Below, piece after piece: positions 32,895 to 39,564 of a stretch of 44,820 bases of DNA (the stretch's first letter is position 1; each line of letters begins with the position of its first letter). Position numbers and translations under genes: made by a program. Source of the DNA: Candidatus Solibacter sp. (GTDB lineage: Bacteria > Acidobacteriota > Terriglobia > Bryobacterales > Bryobacteraceae); NCBI GenBank assembly GCA_025361425.1, contig JANYAH010000082.1, positions 1 to 44,820 on the forward strand. The letters run 5' to 3'. The notes under the pieces were generated by a model, which did not search any database, had not been told where the DNA came from, and saw nothing but the letters and a program-made list of their open reading frames with translations.

Positions 32895-35800
32895 TTAGAA
32901 GTTCAAGCGCAGCGAAAACTGAATCTGCCGGTTCGTCCCAATACCAATCTGGTTCGACACGGTCGATGTCAGCACCCCGAAGTTCCCGCCCGCCGTGCCT
33001 GGCGCAAACGCCACCCCAGGCTGGATCCCACTCGCTCCCGGTCCCGCCGGCAGACCCGCCGACAGCCGCAGGTTCTCCGGGCGGGAGAAGTTTGCATGAT
33101 TGAAAATGTTGTAAAGCTCCGACCGGAACTCCAGGTTCTTTCCTTCTCCCACGCGGAACTTCTTGCTCAACGTGATATCGAACTGCTGCAATCCAGGCCC
33201 GCTCAAGCGGTTGCGCGAAGAGTTGCCGAACGTCCCCGCCGCCGGTATCGAAAACGCCGCCGGATTCAGCCAGTTCAGCCCATTCTTTAGGTACGGGTCC
33301 ACCCCCGCCACTGCGTCCGGACGCCGCACGTTGCGGCTGTTGCCGCCGCCCAGCGTGTTGACCACCGGCTCCGTCACCACCGTGCCGTTGACCACTACCG
33401 GGTTGGCGTAAATGCTGCCATCTCGCTTATCGCGATACGCCAGGTCGGGACGCGTGATCAGCACGTCGATCGGCACGCCGGTGCGCACATTCACCACGCC
33501 GCCCAGTTGCCAGCCTCCCAACAACAGGTCCATCGCTGCCGGTGCGTCCTTCATGAGCTTCTTGCCTTTGCCGACGGGCAGGTCGTACAGCGCCGTCATG
33601 TTGAAGCTGTGACGGATGTCGAAGTTGTTGCTGCCGCGGTCGGCCGCGAAGTTGAACGGGTTACCCGCCGTATTGGCTTCGTTGCTCCCTCCCGAATCGC
33701 CGATGCCGTGCGCCCAACCGTACTGCGCGCCCAGCGAGAGGCCAGAGCTGTAACGGCGGTTTAACGTGATCTGCATCGAATTGTAATTATCCGTGCCGCC
33801 GCTGGTCTTGTAATCGATTTCCGCGAAACGGTTGCCGAACTCGCGCACCGCCGAGCCCACGCCGGTCGCCGCATTCATCGTCGTGCCTATGATCTTGTTG
33901 GTGATGCTCCGCAGGAAGAGATTGCGGCCCTGGCTGCCCACATACGCCACCGTGAGCACGGCATTTCCCGGAATCGCCTGCTGCACCGACGCCGTGTACG
34001 AGAGAACTTTTTCCGGCAGCGTGTAGCCGGGGGCGTACGCGCGCGGCTGATACCCGAGGTTCAAGTCGTTGACGTTGTAGGTCTGGAAAATCGTGCTCAC
34101 GTCGAACGGATAGGCCAGTTGCGCCCCGGAGGTGATGGTGCGGCCGATGCGGTCGTTGGCCGAAGGCTGTATCTGATCCTCGGTCTGCCCTGGGCCGTAA
34201 TAGTAGCCGCCGCCAATGCGAAACACCGTCTGATTCTTGAAGGCTTCCGGTGACCAGCTGAACGCCAGCCGCGGACCGAAATTCTTCGGGGAAGATTTGT
34301 ACCACGCCGCGGAGCCGCCGGCCACAATGTCGCCCTTGGCCATATCGAATACCACGCTCTTCTTGTTCACATCGTGAATCGGCCGGTAGTATTCGTAGCG
34401 CAGCCCGTAACTCATGGTGAGGGTGGGGAGCAGCTTGAACTCATCCTGTGCGTATAGAATGTACAGATTCTGCCGGAGGTGCGCCTTGCCGGAGAGGCCC
34501 GTGAACGGGCTCTTGGCGCTCAAATCGCCGTTGAACGCCATCGAGGAGGGCGTATTAGTCAGAAATGCCGCCACGCTGCCGAAGGAGTAGGTGGTTCCGC
34601 CCAACTGGTCGTTGAACAGCGTCAGCATGCGCAACTCGCCGCCGAACTTCAGGTTGTGATTGCCGCGCACCACGCTCAGGCTGTCCAGAATCGAGGTCGA
34701 ATAGTTGGTGTAGGGCGCGCCCCGGCCGTTGAACGAACTGCTCAGCCGGATCAGGCCGGTCGGTATCGCGATGCCCGCGTTGCCGCTCTGTCCGGCGATT
34801 CCGCCCAGCGCCACGCTGCCGCTCAAGTTCAGAGTCACGCCATTCAGATTCGCGTTCGGGCTCGGACCAGGAACGCCCGCCACCCGCGTCTTGGCTCCGT
34901 TGTAACCGAACTTGGTTTCGTTGATCACCGTCGGCGTCAGCATCTGGCTGAAGCTGGCCACCGCGTTCTGCGGCACGGTGGTCGTGTTGTACTGGCTGAG
35001 CGTGGAATTCTGCGTTTGGGAAGACACGCCCTGGTCCCGGAAGTAGCGCGCGTAGAGGCGGTATTTCGAGCTCAGGTTGTAATCGAAGCGGATGCCCCCG
35101 GCATTCTCACCCACATACGCGGGGGCCGAGATGTTGACAATGTCCAACAACGGGTCTGCCGAACCGAACTGCCCCACCGGGAACGCGCCCAGCAGCGGCC
35201 GTATGGCGGGCGCGATGCAGTTGGCGGTAGTCCCGCCCACGCAATCCGGACGGGCGCGCACGGCCGCGCTCAGAGTGCTCTCCACAATCGGCGATGCCGT
35301 CTTCTGCCGCAGTCCCTCAAAGCTGGCGAAGAAGAACGCCTTCTCTTTCACAATCGGCCCACCGAACGAACCGCCGAACTGGTTCAGGCGAAGTTCGCTC
35401 TTAGTGGCGCCGTCAAAAAAGTTGCGCGCATCCAGCGCGTCATTGCGGATGTATTCGAACGCCGAGCCGTGATAGTTGTTGGAACCAGACTTGGTGACGA
35501 AGCTGATCTGGCCGCCGGTGCCGGTGCCATATTCCGCCGGATAGTTGCTGCTGTCCACACGGAATTCCTGCACGTTCTCGAGGCTCTGTTCCAGCCGGAA
35601 CAGCGACGTGCTTTCCCCGTTCAGGTTGCCCGGCGAACTGTCGATGATCGAAGAGCCTTCCACCCCGTCGAAGCGGATCACATTCTGTTGGTTTGACCGG
35701 CCGCTGAAGCGGATGTTGTCGAAGCTGCCGCTGCCGTTGTTCACCGCGCCCGGGGCCAAGAGGTAAAGCTGGGAAACCTGACGCCCGTTGAGCGGCAATT

Positions 35801-36230
35801 CCGCCACTTCACGGGTGGAAACGTTGGCGCCGATGCGCGCCGAACTCACGTCCACCGTGACCAGTTCCCCGCCGGCCACATTCACTTCGGTAGTCATCGA
35901 CGATGGCGAGAGCGTGATGTTCAGCGTCCGCTCCTGACCCACTTGCAGGCTGATGCCCTGGAACTCCGCCGTCGCCATTCCCGGTGCCATCGCCATCAGC
36001 GAATAGACGGAAGGCTGCAGTTGAGGTGCCAGGTACACACCGTGCTCATCGGTGCTGATCTTCCGGACCTGCCCGGTCTTTTCGTTTTTCACCGCGACGG
36101 ACGCCGCCGGGATGACGGCTCCCGTCGCGTCCGTTACGGTACCCGTCATGCGGGCTGCGTCGGTTTGTGAAAACATCAGGGGCAAAGTCATCGCCCCCAG
36201 CAGCGTAAAACGCAGAACTTTAATTAGCAT
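32895..36230 (-). CDS. Oar-like TonB-dependent receptor with carboxypeptidase-regulatory domain
   Basis: 1111 residues. A Sec signal peptide (KVLRFTLLGAMTLPLMFSQ) precedes a carboxypeptidase-regulatory-like domain (about 26-110, MTGTVTDATGAVIPAASV), a plug (about 115-250, with VAELPLNGRQVSQLYLLAPG and QISFVTKSGSNNYHG) and a beta barrel ending in QFSLRLNF with the terminal aromatic residue. Unlike the receptor at 6121, it directly follows its own TonB-type gene (93-nt gap), so the two likely form a dedicated uptake pair. The ligand is unknown; no carbohydrate enzymes adjoin it. Confidence 0.92.
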   Translation of the reverse strand: MLIKVLRFTLLGAMTLPLMFSQTDAARMTGTVTDATGAVIPAASVAVKNEKTGQVRKISTDEHGVYLAPQLQPSVYSLMAMAPGMATAEFQGISLQVGQERTLNITLSPSSMTTEVNVAGGELVTVDVSSARIGANVSTREVAELPLNGRQVSQLYLLAPGAVNNGSGSFDNIRFSGRSNQQNVIRFDGVEGSSIIDSSPGNLNGESTSLFRLEQSLENVQEFRVDSSNYPAEYGTGTGGQISFVTKSGSNNYHGSAFEYIRNDALDARNFFDGATKSELRLNQFGGSFGGPIVKEKAFFFASFEGLRQKTASPIVESTLSAAVRARPDCVGGTTANCIAPAIRPLLGAFPVGQFGSADPLLDIVNISAPAYVGENAGGIRFDYNLSSKYRLYARYFRDQGVSSQTQNSTLSQYNTTTVPQNAVASFSQMLTPTVINETKFGYNGAKTRVAGVPGPSPNANLNGVTLNLSGSVALGGIAGQSGNAGIAIPTGLIRLSSSFNGRGAPYTNYSTSILDSLSVVRGNHNLKFGGELRMLTLFNDQLGGTTYSFGSVAAFLTNTPSSMAFNGDLSAKSPFTGLSGKAHLRQNLYILYAQDEFKLLPTLTMSYGLRYEYYRPIHDVNKKSVVFDMAKGDIVAGGSAAWYKSSPKNFGPRLAFSWSPEAFKNQTVFRIGGGYYYGPGQTEDQIQPSANDRIGRTITSGAQLAYPFDVSTIFQTYNVNDLNLGYQPRAYAPGYTLPEKVLSYTASVQQAIPGNAVLTVAYVGSQGRNLFLRSITNKIIGTTMNAATGVGSAVREFGNRFAEIDYKTSGGTDNYNSMQITLNRRYSSGLSLGAQYGWAHGIGDSGGSNEANTAGNPFNFAADRGSNNFDIRHSFNMTALYDLPVGKGKKLMKDAPAAMDLLLGGWQLGGVVNVRTGVPIDVLITRPDLAYRDKRDGSIYANPVVVNGTVVTEPVVNTLGGGNSRNVRRPDAVAGVDPYLKNGLNWLNPAAFSIPAAGTFGNSSRNRLSGPGLQQFDITLSKKFRVGEGKNLEFRSELYNIFNHANFSRPENLRLSAGLPAGPGASGIQPGVAFAPGTAGGNFGVLTSTVSNQIGIGTNRQIQFSLRLNF

Positions 36231-36323: not shown

Positions 36324-37982
36324 TCAACGGTTGGGCGCAAAGTTGAATTGCAGGACGATTTCGGCGGGCACCGCATGGCCGTTAAACTGCGCCGGTTGAA
36401 ATTTCCATCGCCGCGCTGCCTCTGTAGCCGCATCGCGCAACAGTTGGTGCAAGCCAGGTTTCGCCACCGCTTCAGCCTTCACCACGCTGCCCGATGCGTC
36501 CACGGATACTTTGACATCCACCGCCATGGCGGTCCACAGCCTTCCTCTCAGCAGTGCGGGAACACTCGGGACCACCTGATGGATTGCCACCGGAGGGTGC
36601 GCTTCGACCGATAGAAGGGGCCGTTCCACTTGCGGAATCCCCTTGGCCGCGGAATCCACCGGTGCTGACAAGGAAACCGGCGGCTCACGCAGCAAGGAGA
36701 GAGTTCCACTGTTGACCGGGATGGCACCGATGACTGGTGGAGGCTCTGCAATGCGCAGGGGCGCCGCCGTGGCGGTGTCCGGGTTCTTCACCTGTTTGAA
36801 TTCCCTGAGTTCCCGGCGGGGCGCCGTCCCGCTGAAAACTGGGGGCGGAGGCCGTTCACCGGTTTTTGAATTACCCTTCTGCGCACTGGTCAGGCTCGCC
36901 CGGCTCTCCCCGATTCCCGACAGTACCACCGTAAGAGACTCCCGGGTCACCTCTTCGCCGGCAACTACATTCAACTGAAATCGCACCTGGTCCTCAGATG
37001 CTGCGTAGACAACTCTGCCGGCGCGCAACTCCTCGGCAGTCAACGGTACATCGCGGCTCACCTTGCTGCCCCGCACCAGCAACATGCCGAAACTAGCCTT
37101 AGAGATCGCAGCCGCGTTGCCGTCCCACGAAACCAAAAGGTCACTACCGCGCTTCTCGACAGTCAGCCCGAGCGGTGTTTTCACTTCAACTCGAGTTACC
37201 GCTGCCGGCTGCGGCGCCCGCGAATTGGAGCCGCGCCTGAAAAACAGAAACGCGCCCACTAACAGAGCAGCGCCCACTAACAGAGCAGCGCCTACTACCG
37301 CCGTTAGCGCGAGCGCCAACCTCCGCCGGCCCGTTCCCTGTCTAGCCACTGGTTTCGCCGCTATCGAATCCTGCCCGTGGTCAGCCGGCGATTCCGCAAC
37401 AGCTGCGGACGCCGCCCCTTCGGAAATGCCACCCACTATCTCGTCCGCCGGGGACGCGATTCGAATGTTTGACCGCCGTCGCCGCTCGGCGACCGCAAGC
37501 TCCTCCGCGTCGAAGGGGAACAGCATCAACGGCCAATCGAAAAGCTCGCGTTCGCCCCAAAAACAAAAGCGTGCATCGCCGATGCCCGATTCCCCGGTTT
37601 CGATCAGCAGAAACACGGAGCTGGGATGACGGAACAAGCTTTCGGCCAAAGCTTTGTCCACATCCAGCATCGAAGCCGTGCCAATCGGAGTCGTCCGGTA
37701 GAAGCCGACTACGTCCCCGCGCATGCTGGCGGACGCCACCACTACCGAGGCGGCATCCAGTGTCTGCAACGCCTCGGAACCTAGAATCCTCGCGATCCCC
37801 GGCTTGGGTGTATCGCCAGTGAGTAATCCGCACCCCGACAGTACGCCCGCGTCTTTCTCTGAGTCCTGAATCTGCTTCCCGATCCTACTTACGACTTCAA
37901 GACTAAGGTGGACCTGAACTGGCGAGTTGGAAAAACCCCATGTGTAGAAATCCGGAATTGGCTGGTGCGTGGCGGCCGACAT
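36324..37982 (-). CDS. TonB-type energy transducer with degenerate MPN/JAB-like head and Fn3-like domain
   Basis: 552 residues from ATG 37982; the upstream extension has no similarity. Residues 1-165 look like a JAB/MPN fold: CGLLTGD, VVGFYRTTPIG and HPSSVFLLIE match the GLLLG, VVGWYHSHP and VFLLI blocks of that family, but the metal-binding histidines are replaced (Y95, R96, T97), so it should be inactive. A Lys/Arg-rich linker leads to one membrane span (221-248), a fibronectin-III-like domain (about 264-355), a proline-rich stretch and a C-terminal TonB domain (about 470-548, DVKVSVDASGSVVKAEAV, RRWKFQP). Topology: head in the cytoplasm, TonB in the periplasm. It is followed by its likely cognate receptor. 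Confidence 0.8.
   Translation of the reverse strand: MSAATHQPIPDFYTWGFSNSPVQVHLSLEVVSRIGKQIQDSEKDAGVLSGCGLLTGDTPKPGIARILGSEALQTLDAASVVVASASMRGDVVGFYRTTPIGTASMLDVDKALAESLFRHPSSVFLLIETGESGIGDARFCFWGERELFDWPLMLFPFDAEELAVAERRRRSNIRIASPADEIVGGISEGAASAAVAESPADHGQDSIAAKPVARQGTGRRRLALALTAVVGAALLVGAALLVGAFLFFRRGSNSRAPQPAAVTRVEVKTPLGLTVEKRGSDLLVSWDGNAAAISKASFGMLLVRGSKVSRDVPLTAEELRAGRVVYAASEDQVRFQLNVVAGEEVTRESLTVVLSGIGESRASLTSAQKGNSKTGERPPPPVFSGTAPRRELREFKQVKNPDTATAAPLRIAEPPPVIGAIPVNSGTLSLLREPPVSLSAPVDSAAKGIPQVERPLLSVEAHPPVAIHQVVPSVPALLRGRLWTAMAVDVKVSVDASGSVVKAEAVAKPGLHQLLRDAATEAARRWKFQPAQFNGHAVPAEIVLQFNFAPNR
37252..37287 (+). repeat. 18-bp tandem repeat within the TonB membrane span
   Basis: GCGCCCACTAACAGAGCA is present twice in direct tandem (37252-37269 and 37270-37287). 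On the coding strand each unit adds six hydrophobic residues, giving the doubled GAALLVGAALLVGAF in the membrane helix. Loss or gain of a unit keeps the frame and changes helix length by six residues. Confidence 0.85.
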
Positions 37983-38118: not shown

Positions 38119-38499
38119 CTACCGCGGGCGCACGGCCGCTTTCTCCCTCTCGCCAAGGCTTTCCGCGTAGCCCTTCATATCCGCCGCGGACACCGTGACC
38201 AGATCCTTCTCCATGTCCTCGCCCGTCTCCACCAGCCGCCGCAGATGCATCGCACCCAGGCGGCAACACCACGGGTCGTCCACTTTACGGCCAACCTCTC
38301 CGGACACCCGCAACAAATCGGCATGAGGCAGCGCGATGGTTTTTTCCGCGCGCCCCCCGTTTTCATCCACCAGGATGAACTTCACATCCACCGTGTCCGC
38401 GTGGCGCAGCGAGATCGCGGTCTGCATCCACTTGAACAGGATCTGGAACTTGCGGCCAAACGGATCGGGTCCGGCTTCGAACTGGCGAAAATTCTCCAT
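38119..38499 (-). CDS. Conserved hypothetical protein
   Basis: 126 residues starting MENFRQFEAGPDPFGRKFQI. The sequence is soluble, without signal peptide, with segments WMQTAISLRHADTVDVKFIL, PWCCRLGAMHLRRLVETGED and MEKDLVTVSAADM. I recognise its style from Acidobacteria but no domain or function. On the minus strand a TAAAAT box (38513-38508) lies eight bases before ATG 38499, overlapping a -10 box for the opposite gene. Confidence 0.75.
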   Translation of the reverse strand: MENFRQFEAGPDPFGRKFQILFKWMQTAISLRHADTVDVKFILVDENGGRAEKTIALPHADLLRVSGEVGRKVDDPWCCRLGAMHLRRLVETGEDMEKDLVTVSAADMKGYAESLGEREKAAVRPR

Positions 38500-38535: not shown

Positions 38536-39564
38536 GTGCTGGTAGCTAAACTCATTGCGCAACGCCAATTCCATCTGACCGAAGAATCAATCGAAAACCC
38601 AGGCCCCGGCGAAGTCCAGGTGCGGGTCAATGCCGTCGGTATCTGCGGCAGCGATCTGCATTCCTATTCCGAAGGCGCGGTGGGCGACACCCCCTGCGAA
38701 TACCCCATGGTGCTGGGCCACGAACCGGCCGGCACCCTGGTCAAGACCGGCACCGGTGTCACAGGCTGGCACCCCGGCGACCGCGCCGCGCTCGAACCGG
38801 CGCTCTACTGCTACCACTGCGAGTTCTGCCGCTCCGGCCATCACAACGTCTGCGCGAATATCCGCTTTCTCAGCAACCCAGGCACTCCCGGATTCTTCCG
38901 TGAGTTCGTCAATCTGCCGGTCGCGAACCTGCTCGCCATCCCGCCGGACCTCCCGCTCGAACTCGCCACAATTGTCGAGCCCCTAGCCGTGGCCATGCAC
39001 TCCATGCGGTTCGCCGCCGTCCAACCCGGCGAAACTGTCGCCGTCTTCGGCGCCGGACCCATCGGATTGCTCACCATCGCCTGCCTCAAAGTGGCCGGTG
39101 CCGGCCGCATCTGGGCCATCGACCCCGTGCCTCATCGCCGCCAACTCGCCCACCACATGGGCGCCCACGCGACGCTAGACCCCGGCCAGATCGACCCCGC
39201 GCGCCAGATCCTGGCCGACACCGCCAACCGCGGCGTGGATTGCGCCATCGATTGTGCCGCCAAGGAAAACACCACCAATGCCGCCATTCGCGCCGCCCGC
39301 AACGCCGGCCGAGTCGTCCTCACCGGCATTCACTCCGCCGCCCTGGTGCCCTTCGAAGTCTCCCCCATGCGCCGCAAGGAACTCGCCATCTTCAATGTGC
39401 GCCGCTCAAACCACGAAGCCCACGAGGCGCTCGCGTTGCTCACCGCACACATGGCATGGTTCGCCCCCCTGTTAACCCACACCCGCCCCCTCCATGGGAT
39501 CGCCGATGCCTTTACCCTCACCGAGCACTACGCCGACGGCGTCGGTAAAATGGTGATCGTGTAG
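38536..39564 (+). CDS. Zinc-dependent medium-chain alcohol/polyol dehydrogenase
   Basis: 342 residues from GTG 38536, preceded by TAGGAAA. Catalytic zinc ligands are C37 in GICGSDLH and H62/E63 in LGHEPAG; the structural zinc cysteines are C92, C95, C98 and C106 in YCYHCEFCRSGHHNVC. The NAD(P)-binding loop is VFGAGPIGLLTIA. This pattern fits sorbitol, threonine or similar polyol dehydrogenases of the MDR superfamily. No sugar genes adjoin it, so the substrate is open. Confidence 0.93.
   Translation: MLVAKLIAQRQFHLTEESIENPGPGEVQVRVNAVGICGSDLHSYSEGAVGDTPCEYPMVLGHEPAGTLVKTGTGVTGWHPGDRAALEPALYCYHCEFCRSGHHNVCANIRFLSNPGTPGFFREFVNLPVANLLAIPPDLPLELATIVEPLAVAMHSMRFAAVQPGETVAVFGAGPIGLLTIACLKVAGAGRIWAIDPVPHRRQLAHHMGAHATLDPGQIDPARQILADTANRGVDCAIDCAAKENTTNAAIRAARNAGRVVLTGIHSAALVPFEVSPMRRKELAIFNVRRSNHEAHEALALLTAHMAWFAPLLTHTRPLHGIADAFTLTEHYADGVGKMVIV

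Follow-up and report, generated by a model that had tools for sequence, protein, structure and literature searches.

Partnerships between JAMM proteins and pseudo-JAMM proteins are well known from eukaryotic complexes. The JAMM motif has been given as EXnHS/THX7SXXD (excerpts of PMC300881), and MPN− subunits such as KIAA0157/Abraxas, Rpn8, and CSN6 share the MPN fold but have lost the JAMM ligands. According to excerpts of PMC4579573 and PMC4140821, MPN− proteins activate their MPN+ partners. In KIAA0157, the pseudodeubiquitinase that partners BRCC36, both histidines are lost (to Cys and Arg), Glu is replaced with Asn and Ser with Thr, and the Asp is kept; a salt contact between Arg103 and Asp115 has been proposed to help order the metal-free site (excerpts of PMC4579573). 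TonB, HasB, and TolA, for their part, carry a TonB C-terminal domain after a single transmembrane (TM) helix and a Pro-rich linker.

Here we describe a gene in a 44,820-nucleotide stretch of Candidatus Solibacter sp. DNA (contig JANYAH010000082.1), referred to below as the window, whose product shares features with all of these proteins. It resembles the MPN− subunits in its MPN fold and lost JAMM ligands and, like KIAA0157 (excerpts of PMC4579573), keeps the Asp and has an Arg in the place of a His, but it is bacterial and membrane anchored, with Fn3 and TonB_C domains, and the Arg replaces the first His in the window head and the second His in KIAA0157. Like TonB, HasB, and TolA, it has a TonB C-terminal domain preceded by a single TM helix and Pro-rich linker, but the ~220 residues ahead of its TM helix contain a folded domain, an Fn3-like domain is present as well, and the helix has no histidine. 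The fold of the head is common to the Rpn11 homologue 6fju, PfJAMM1 (5ld9), Cap3 (9ild), and a Ubl-deubiquitinase (8tyx), and a paralogue in the host genome (C80) has the complete motif. Compared with these bacterial and archaeal JAMM proteins, however, the window protein is without four of the five motif residues, and no gene context like theirs was seen in the window. Four Acidobacteriota JAMM proteins (L018 and L020 to L022) likewise have a JAMM head, followed in each case by a hydrophobic span identified by eye, but their motifs are complete and none has TonB_C by local profile; the Pfam matches of L018 and L022 are to JAB models only.

The window protein is a new domain combination within known superfamilies and fits best as a pseudo-JAMM branch within a family of membrane-anchored JAMM proteins specific to the lineage. 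Searches of open full-text papers, a scope that excludes subscription papers and preprints, found no description of a bacterial set of membrane-anchored JAMM and pseudo-JAMM proteins or of an MPN head on a TonB-type protein, and no paper combining JAB, TonB, and Acidobacteria or Bryobacter and JAMM. JAMM and TonB were mentioned together in one paper, on reverse vaccinology, and Mov34 and Acidobacteria were mentioned together in connection with an archaeal Ubl system and ubiquitin. The passages excerpted from PMC1779556, in which Iyer and colleagues treat prokaryotic Ub-like systems, do not describe an MPN-TM-Fn3 family.

Gene and domain layout of the window protein

The open reading frame had been proposed by a sequence-only reading that gave no strand. 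It is real but lies on the minus strand, running from an ATG at 37982 to a stop codon at 36324; frame 1 of the plus strand contains several stops over the same interval. The ATG is preceded by AGGAAAG, consistent with a start there, and the open frame of four orthologues opens only 12 to 18 codons 5' of the same ATG, so that we take ATG 37982 as the supported start. A TTG farther 5', which would give a protein of 610 amino acids with an extra hydrophobic stretch, was rejected because the four orthologue frames start 12 to 18 codons before the ATG. The blocks GLLTG, VVGFYRTTPIG, and HPSSVFLLIE, on which the earlier MPN/JAB call had rested, are all found in the translation.

Table 1. Coordinates of the gene, its parts, and its neighbors in the window
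Feature	Position	Strand	Evidence or conservation
Whole gene, 552 aa: pseudo-JAMM head, TM, Fn3-like domain, Pro-rich linker, TonB_C	36324..37982	-	
Head, MPN fold (degenerate JAMM), residues 12-173	37464..37949	-	AlphaFold, Foldseek, VIA-align, profile control
Arg96, place of first JAMM His	37695..37697	-	Alignment; Arg in 110/113 non-HxH heads
Asp109, sole JAMM residue retained	37656..37658	-	Alignment; Asp in 145/145 heads
Single TM helix, residues 220-247, without His	37242..37325	-	AlphaFold
Fn3-like beta sandwich, residues 274-353, predicted periplasmic	36924..37163	-	AlphaFold and FN3 structure matches
TonB C-terminal domain, residues 465-548	36339..36590	-	PF03544 and TonB CTD structures
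Oar-like TonB-dependent receptor (CarboxypepD_reg + OMP_b-brl_4), ~93 bp downstream; possible partner	32895..36230	-	
126-aa ORF, upstream, function not assigned	38119..38499	-	Kept in three genus relatives: 88, 82, 72% identity

Pfam recognized one domain in the 552-aa protein, TonB_C (PF03544, E = 4.8e-10, residues 488 to 549, above the cut-off), and, besides TonB-type models, direct searches with Pfam and NCBIfam returned only a weak match to an AgmX/PglI tail model; the Pfam fn3 model did not match the window protein. AlphaFold prediction of the full-length protein with 31 relatives gave four ordered parts, namely, the head, the TM helix, the Fn3-like part, and the C-terminal domain, with a mean pLDDT of 70 and a pTM of 0.44, values at which the mutual arrangement of the four parts is not predicted. 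Within the Fn3-like part, 10-residue pLDDT means were 86 to 97 over most of its length, and Foldseek matched it to FN3 domains and FN3-based monobodies (TMt, 0.46 to 0.73). The C-terminal part matched the TonB C-terminal domains 6i97_D, 1u07, and 2gsk_B (TMt, 0.73 to 0.78), and the stretch between these two parts is proline rich and mostly of low AlphaFold confidence. The single membrane span, Fn3-like domain, and TonB domain of the sequence-only reading are thus backed by AlphaFold, Foldseek, and PF03544.

An MPN head with a lost JAMM site

We modeled the head alone with 52 relatives, which gave a pLDDT of 81 and a pTM of 0.79. Among the best 50 Foldseek matches of this model, 49 came from entries that hold an MPN protein, as judged by their titles or by the family profile search, and the other (9is6_E) has an uninformative title; the best E value was 9.7e-6, to the Rpn11 homologue 6fju, at moderate TMq values (0.37 to 0.51). 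VIA-align placed 6gvw_A, from the BRCA1-A complex, first (Z = 12.6, rmsd 3.2, 136 residues aligned), followed by BRCC36-KIAA0157, Rpn11, Cap3 (9ild, Z = 11.6), and a bacterial Ubl-deubiquitinase complex (8tyx, Z = 10.7). When the family profile was run against the PDB, archaeal Rpn11 was matched at an E value of 6.1e-6, and weaker matches (E = 0.004 to 0.8) comprised 2kcq and RPN11, RPN8, BRCC36, CSN5, and AMSH chains, with an unrelated acetyltransferase among them (E = 0.0094).

Profiles of relatives point the same way. The window head scored 54.9 bits with a profile of 101 R-type heads from which the window clade had been excluded, and the best of 1,000 shuffled heads scored 4.1. With a profile of the 32 HxH heads alone, it scored 10.7 bits (E = 0.013) against 6.1 for the best shuffle, a small difference that links it to active JAMM proteins mainly via intermediates; the same profile gave 14.4 to 35.0 bits with the four orthologues of the window gene. 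The Pfam JAB models did not match the window head even at an E value of 10, and at an E value of ≤0.01 they matched 9 of the 32 full-length family members scanned, the window protein not being among the 9. The MPN/JAB identity of the head, originally called on weak similarity, is borne out by the AlphaFold fold, the Foldseek and VIA-align matches, and the profile of relatives.

In the H-x-H-x7-S-x2-D register, the site of the window head reads Arg96, Thr98, Leu106, and Asp109, with Ser49 in the place of the Glu (alignment A3 puts Leu48 in the Glu column). The head thus departs from EXnHS/THX7SXXD at four of the five residues, only the Asp staying. Replacement of the two histidines had been noted from the sequence; the catalytic Glu and the Ser prove to be lost as well. 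Judged by these residues, the site is dead as a metalloprotease.

The MPN-TM-Fn3 family of Bryobacteraceae

Of 201 related genomes searched with a profile (E ≤ 1e-10), 120 contain the family, comprising 119 of 121 Bryobacteraceae, with one to six matches in each of the 119, and 1 of 80 others; being near-universal in Bryobacteraceae, it probably has a general role in these bacteria. Across the phylum, the first profile (E ≤ 1e-4) gave matches in 20 of 297 genomes. The weaker of these (L018 to L031) were ordinary JAMM proteins, with HxH in all 14 that were read, and strong members outside Bryobacteraceae were present in G228 (L016 and L036) and in G250 (L017, in which the Fn3-like part is absent by eye). 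A scan of genome contigs for [VA]G[FY][FY]RSHTR gave 74 loci, all on contigs with Acidobacteriota titles save one. That one (L101, on CALQCC020000010.1) lies in a MAG titled Bordetella parapertussis, a label that is probably wrong.

Four family members are encoded in the host genome, namely, the window gene, C259 (RSH, with TonB_C), C285 (ESH), and C80, in which E, H, H, S, and D are all present as E...HSHx7SxxD. C80 exceeded the Pfam JAB cut-off (29.0 against 22.5), was borderline with Prok-JAB (27.4 and 24.8 bits in two runs; cut-off, 25), and gave a weak JAB match in PADLOC (E = 0.0026). C80 (L037, L114) joins an MPN-TM-Fn3-like arrangement to a coiled-coil-like tail, and its gene is not linked to the window gene; in four genomes of the genus (the host's own, G001, G003, and G005), the C80-type gene lies downstream of a gene that we named, by eye, a PAS hybrid histidine kinase. 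A BLAST cluster had pointed to another MPN gene next to that of C80 type, but the proteins there proved to be this kinase, joined through a spurious overlapping open reading frame, and the idea was rejected.

In a census of 145 heads, HxH was the state of 32, four of which belong to the outgroup; the Ser position is occupied by Ser in 28 of these 32 and by Thr in 4. A further 102 heads were RxH, and 11 had other states. These counts are not population frequencies because 74 loci came from the RSHTR scan and the others are best matches only. Four of the 74 loci (L065, L084, L108, and L112), truncated or broken, were left out of the alignments, and alignment A3 holds 52 of the remaining 70 together with the window protein. 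The census likewise omits these four, the duplicates L128, L153, L156, and L157, and L136, L143, L147, L168, and L185; its outgroup comprises four of the ordinary JAMM matches L018 to L031, with L009 and L032 left out, and L218 to L224 stand outside it. The site states of the window clade are RxT and RxI. TonB_C occurred in none of the 32 HxH heads and in 30 of the 113 others, a separation that rests essentially on one split of the head tree, on which no fewer than five changes of the TonB_C label are required.

Across 32 aligned full-length members, W286, I303, G306, and G322 of the Fn3-like part were kept in at least 90%. The C-terminal module, on the other hand, may be TonB_C, PEGA, or a coiled-coil-like tail (L037, by eye), or the protein may end after the Fn3-like part. 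With the Fn3-like part conserved and the tails different, MPN-TM-Fn3 is the usual unit and the tail changeable. The PEGA-type C terminus was seen in place of TonB_C in L220 (by Pfam) and in L221 and L223 (by eye).

Some gene neighborhoods recur among the scan loci. For members without TonB_C, the divergent neighbor is mostly a gene that we take to be rsmI, for a 16S rRNA methyltransferase (36 of the 74 loci). At 17 of the 74 (e.g., L057 and L070), long members with TonB_C are divergent from a gene pair, one gene encoding a protein that begins with a zinc-ribbon-like CxLC stretch and the other a TPR protein; the CxLC protein at L070 had no Pfam match.

The head tree was built from 72 of the 145 heads with the site columns removed, by a quick method with SH-aLRT support only. 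One branch of 21 rows is mostly HxH (18 rows, the other three having V, L, or E), and a second, of 47 rows (support, 90), is all Arg and includes, on a long stem of 1.83, the clade of the window protein (support, 99). Three rows of the tree have very long branches, and L010 and the window clade may attract each other according to a warning of the program. The next best matches after the window clade itself, in related genomes, show steps between this branch and that clade. L222 keeps the Glu and has RSH and TonB_C, L218 has lost the Glu and has RTH with TonB_C just below the Pfam cut-off, L219 has RAT and TonB_C, L220, L221, and L223 have RTD, and L224, which is short, has RTE. The heads of the window clade are among the most degraded of the family.

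Topology, selection, and possible roles

TonB_C is expected to lie in the periplasm. With a single predicted TM helix, this would place the head in the cytoplasm, as the sequence-only reading had it. Positive-inside counts over 131 family members agree with that orientation (N-terminal side richer in 84, C-terminal side richer in 22, 25 ties), but among the 30 TonB_C-bearing members the excess is a weak one (12 against 9).

The head is under purifying selection and is not drifting. For the window gene against its four orthologues, simple Nei-Gojobori counts on short stretches gave head dN/dS values of 0.28, 0.42, 0.41, and 0.28 and pre-TM linker values of 0.80, 0.80, 0.45, and 0.63. The Fn3-like part gave 0.35 to 0.60, and in three comparisons each the post-Fn3 linker gave 0.61 to 0.80 and TonB_C 0.27 to 0.49. 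Among six segments compared, the head had the lowest value against three of the orthologues and was level with TonB_C against the fourth. The clade is patchy, being present in 5 of the 9 genomes of the genus.

We favor, at a probability of about one in two, a single-pass inner-membrane protein in which a cytoplasmic pseudo-JAMM head would serve for docking or allostery and TonB_C would be a tether across the envelope. Such a protein would have arisen from the membrane-anchored MPN-TM-Fn3 proteins of Bryobacteraceae, some of which have a complete JAMM site. By analogy with KIAA0157, Arg96 in the place of a zinc ligand may pair with Asp109, so that the metal-free pocket would stay ordered; the retention of Arg and Asp in the R branch suggests a similar solution, at the first His instead of the second. 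The simplest partner of the docking or allosteric module would be the MPN+ paralogue C80 or another membrane MPN head, and the Fn3-like domain, linker, and TonB_C could extend across the periplasm as far as peptidoglycan or an outer-membrane receptor. The head would then be tethered to the envelope, or report on it, and would not drive transport as a normal TonB does. Against this reading, the C80 gene is unlinked to the window gene and, in the four genomes of the genus, has the kinase and no MPN− gene beside it; the patchiness of the window clade speaks against an essential, fixed pair; the Foldseek TMq values are moderate; and the neighboring genes offer no ubiquitin-like or convincing defense context.

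The reading made from the sequence alone was, instead, that the head could sense a cytoplasmic partner and couple it to outer-membrane transport. On such a view the protein would be a true TonB that works with ExbB/ExbD for the adjacent Oar-like receptor, its activity tuned by the head, and we regard this as rather unlikely. TonB_C scores above the Pfam cut-off, the genome has three ExbD matches, and the receptor lies on the same strand; however, a receptor was found downstream of the gene in only one of the three relatives with a readable downstream side (G003, 88% identity), and the Oar-like receptor barrel PF25183 is matched 71 times in the 5.3-Mb host genome, in part by fragments of a single gene, so that adjacency means little. 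Moreover, a TM histidine corresponding to E. coli H20 is missing from the window protein and from all 30 TonB_C-bearing members, and excerpts of PMC11658791 describe TonB(H20A) as inactive. At four of the eight other TonB_C loci of the host genome, a clear TM helix contains a His, but L206, whose contig carries two ExbD matches, and L208 are also without one, and the missing His is therefore not decisive. On this evidence, a head that senses a cytoplasmic partner and is coupled to outer-membrane transport is no more than a possible reading.

If TonB_C is an anchor, a TolA-like or peptidoglycan tether with the MPN head as a passive cytoplasmic knob might be enough. The missing TM histidine and the variety of C-terminal modules among relatives, as for an anchor, are consistent with this, but a passive knob would drift, which the low dN/dS values of the head argue against, and we consider it improbable. 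Decay of the head into a functionless relic is highly improbable. The long stem, the loss of four of five site residues, and the divergence of the gene (49 to 63% identity between relatives, against 72 to 93% for most neighboring pieces and 64% for one 121-aa piece) could be read in that way, but the dN/dS of the head is 0.28 to 0.42, the frame of the window clade is open in five genomes (one ending at a contig end), Arg96 and Asp109 are invariant in the clade, and blocks such as ARFCFWG are conserved.

Another improbable role, on a par with the passive knob, is that the head binds a Ubl/ThiS-like tail or modified proteins without cleaving them, the rest of the protein anchoring the complex to the envelope. 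Cap3 and the bacterial Ubl-deubiquitinase complex are among its structural matches, and HxH paralogues exist. On the other side, the pseudo-site of KIAA0157 is thought, in excerpts of PMC4579573, to have lost ubiquitin binding too, and PADLOC gave only a single weak match among nine window proteins (mad2, E = 0.0044, on the open reading frame at 38536 to 39561) and, among the nine, no match to CD-NTase, E1, E2, or Ubl gene context. The 126-aa upstream neighbor had only a subthreshold Pfam match, to DUF6489 (E = 0.08).

Within the favored reading of a docking head with a TonB_C tether, a more specific version is unlikely, namely, a trans-envelope regulatory system in which membrane pseudo-JAMM heads pair in the cytoplasm with an active membrane JAMM protease and TonB_C, docked on a receptor or on the wall, relays envelope status to it, or the reverse. 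Because the family is near-universal, co-occurrence of HxH and R-type members is equally compatible with pairing and with its absence.

The family makes it possible to test in bacteria how a metalloprotease turns into a scaffold, related genomes supplying the intermediates, and raises the question of whether TonB-type tails may serve for tethering or signaling rather than for energized import.
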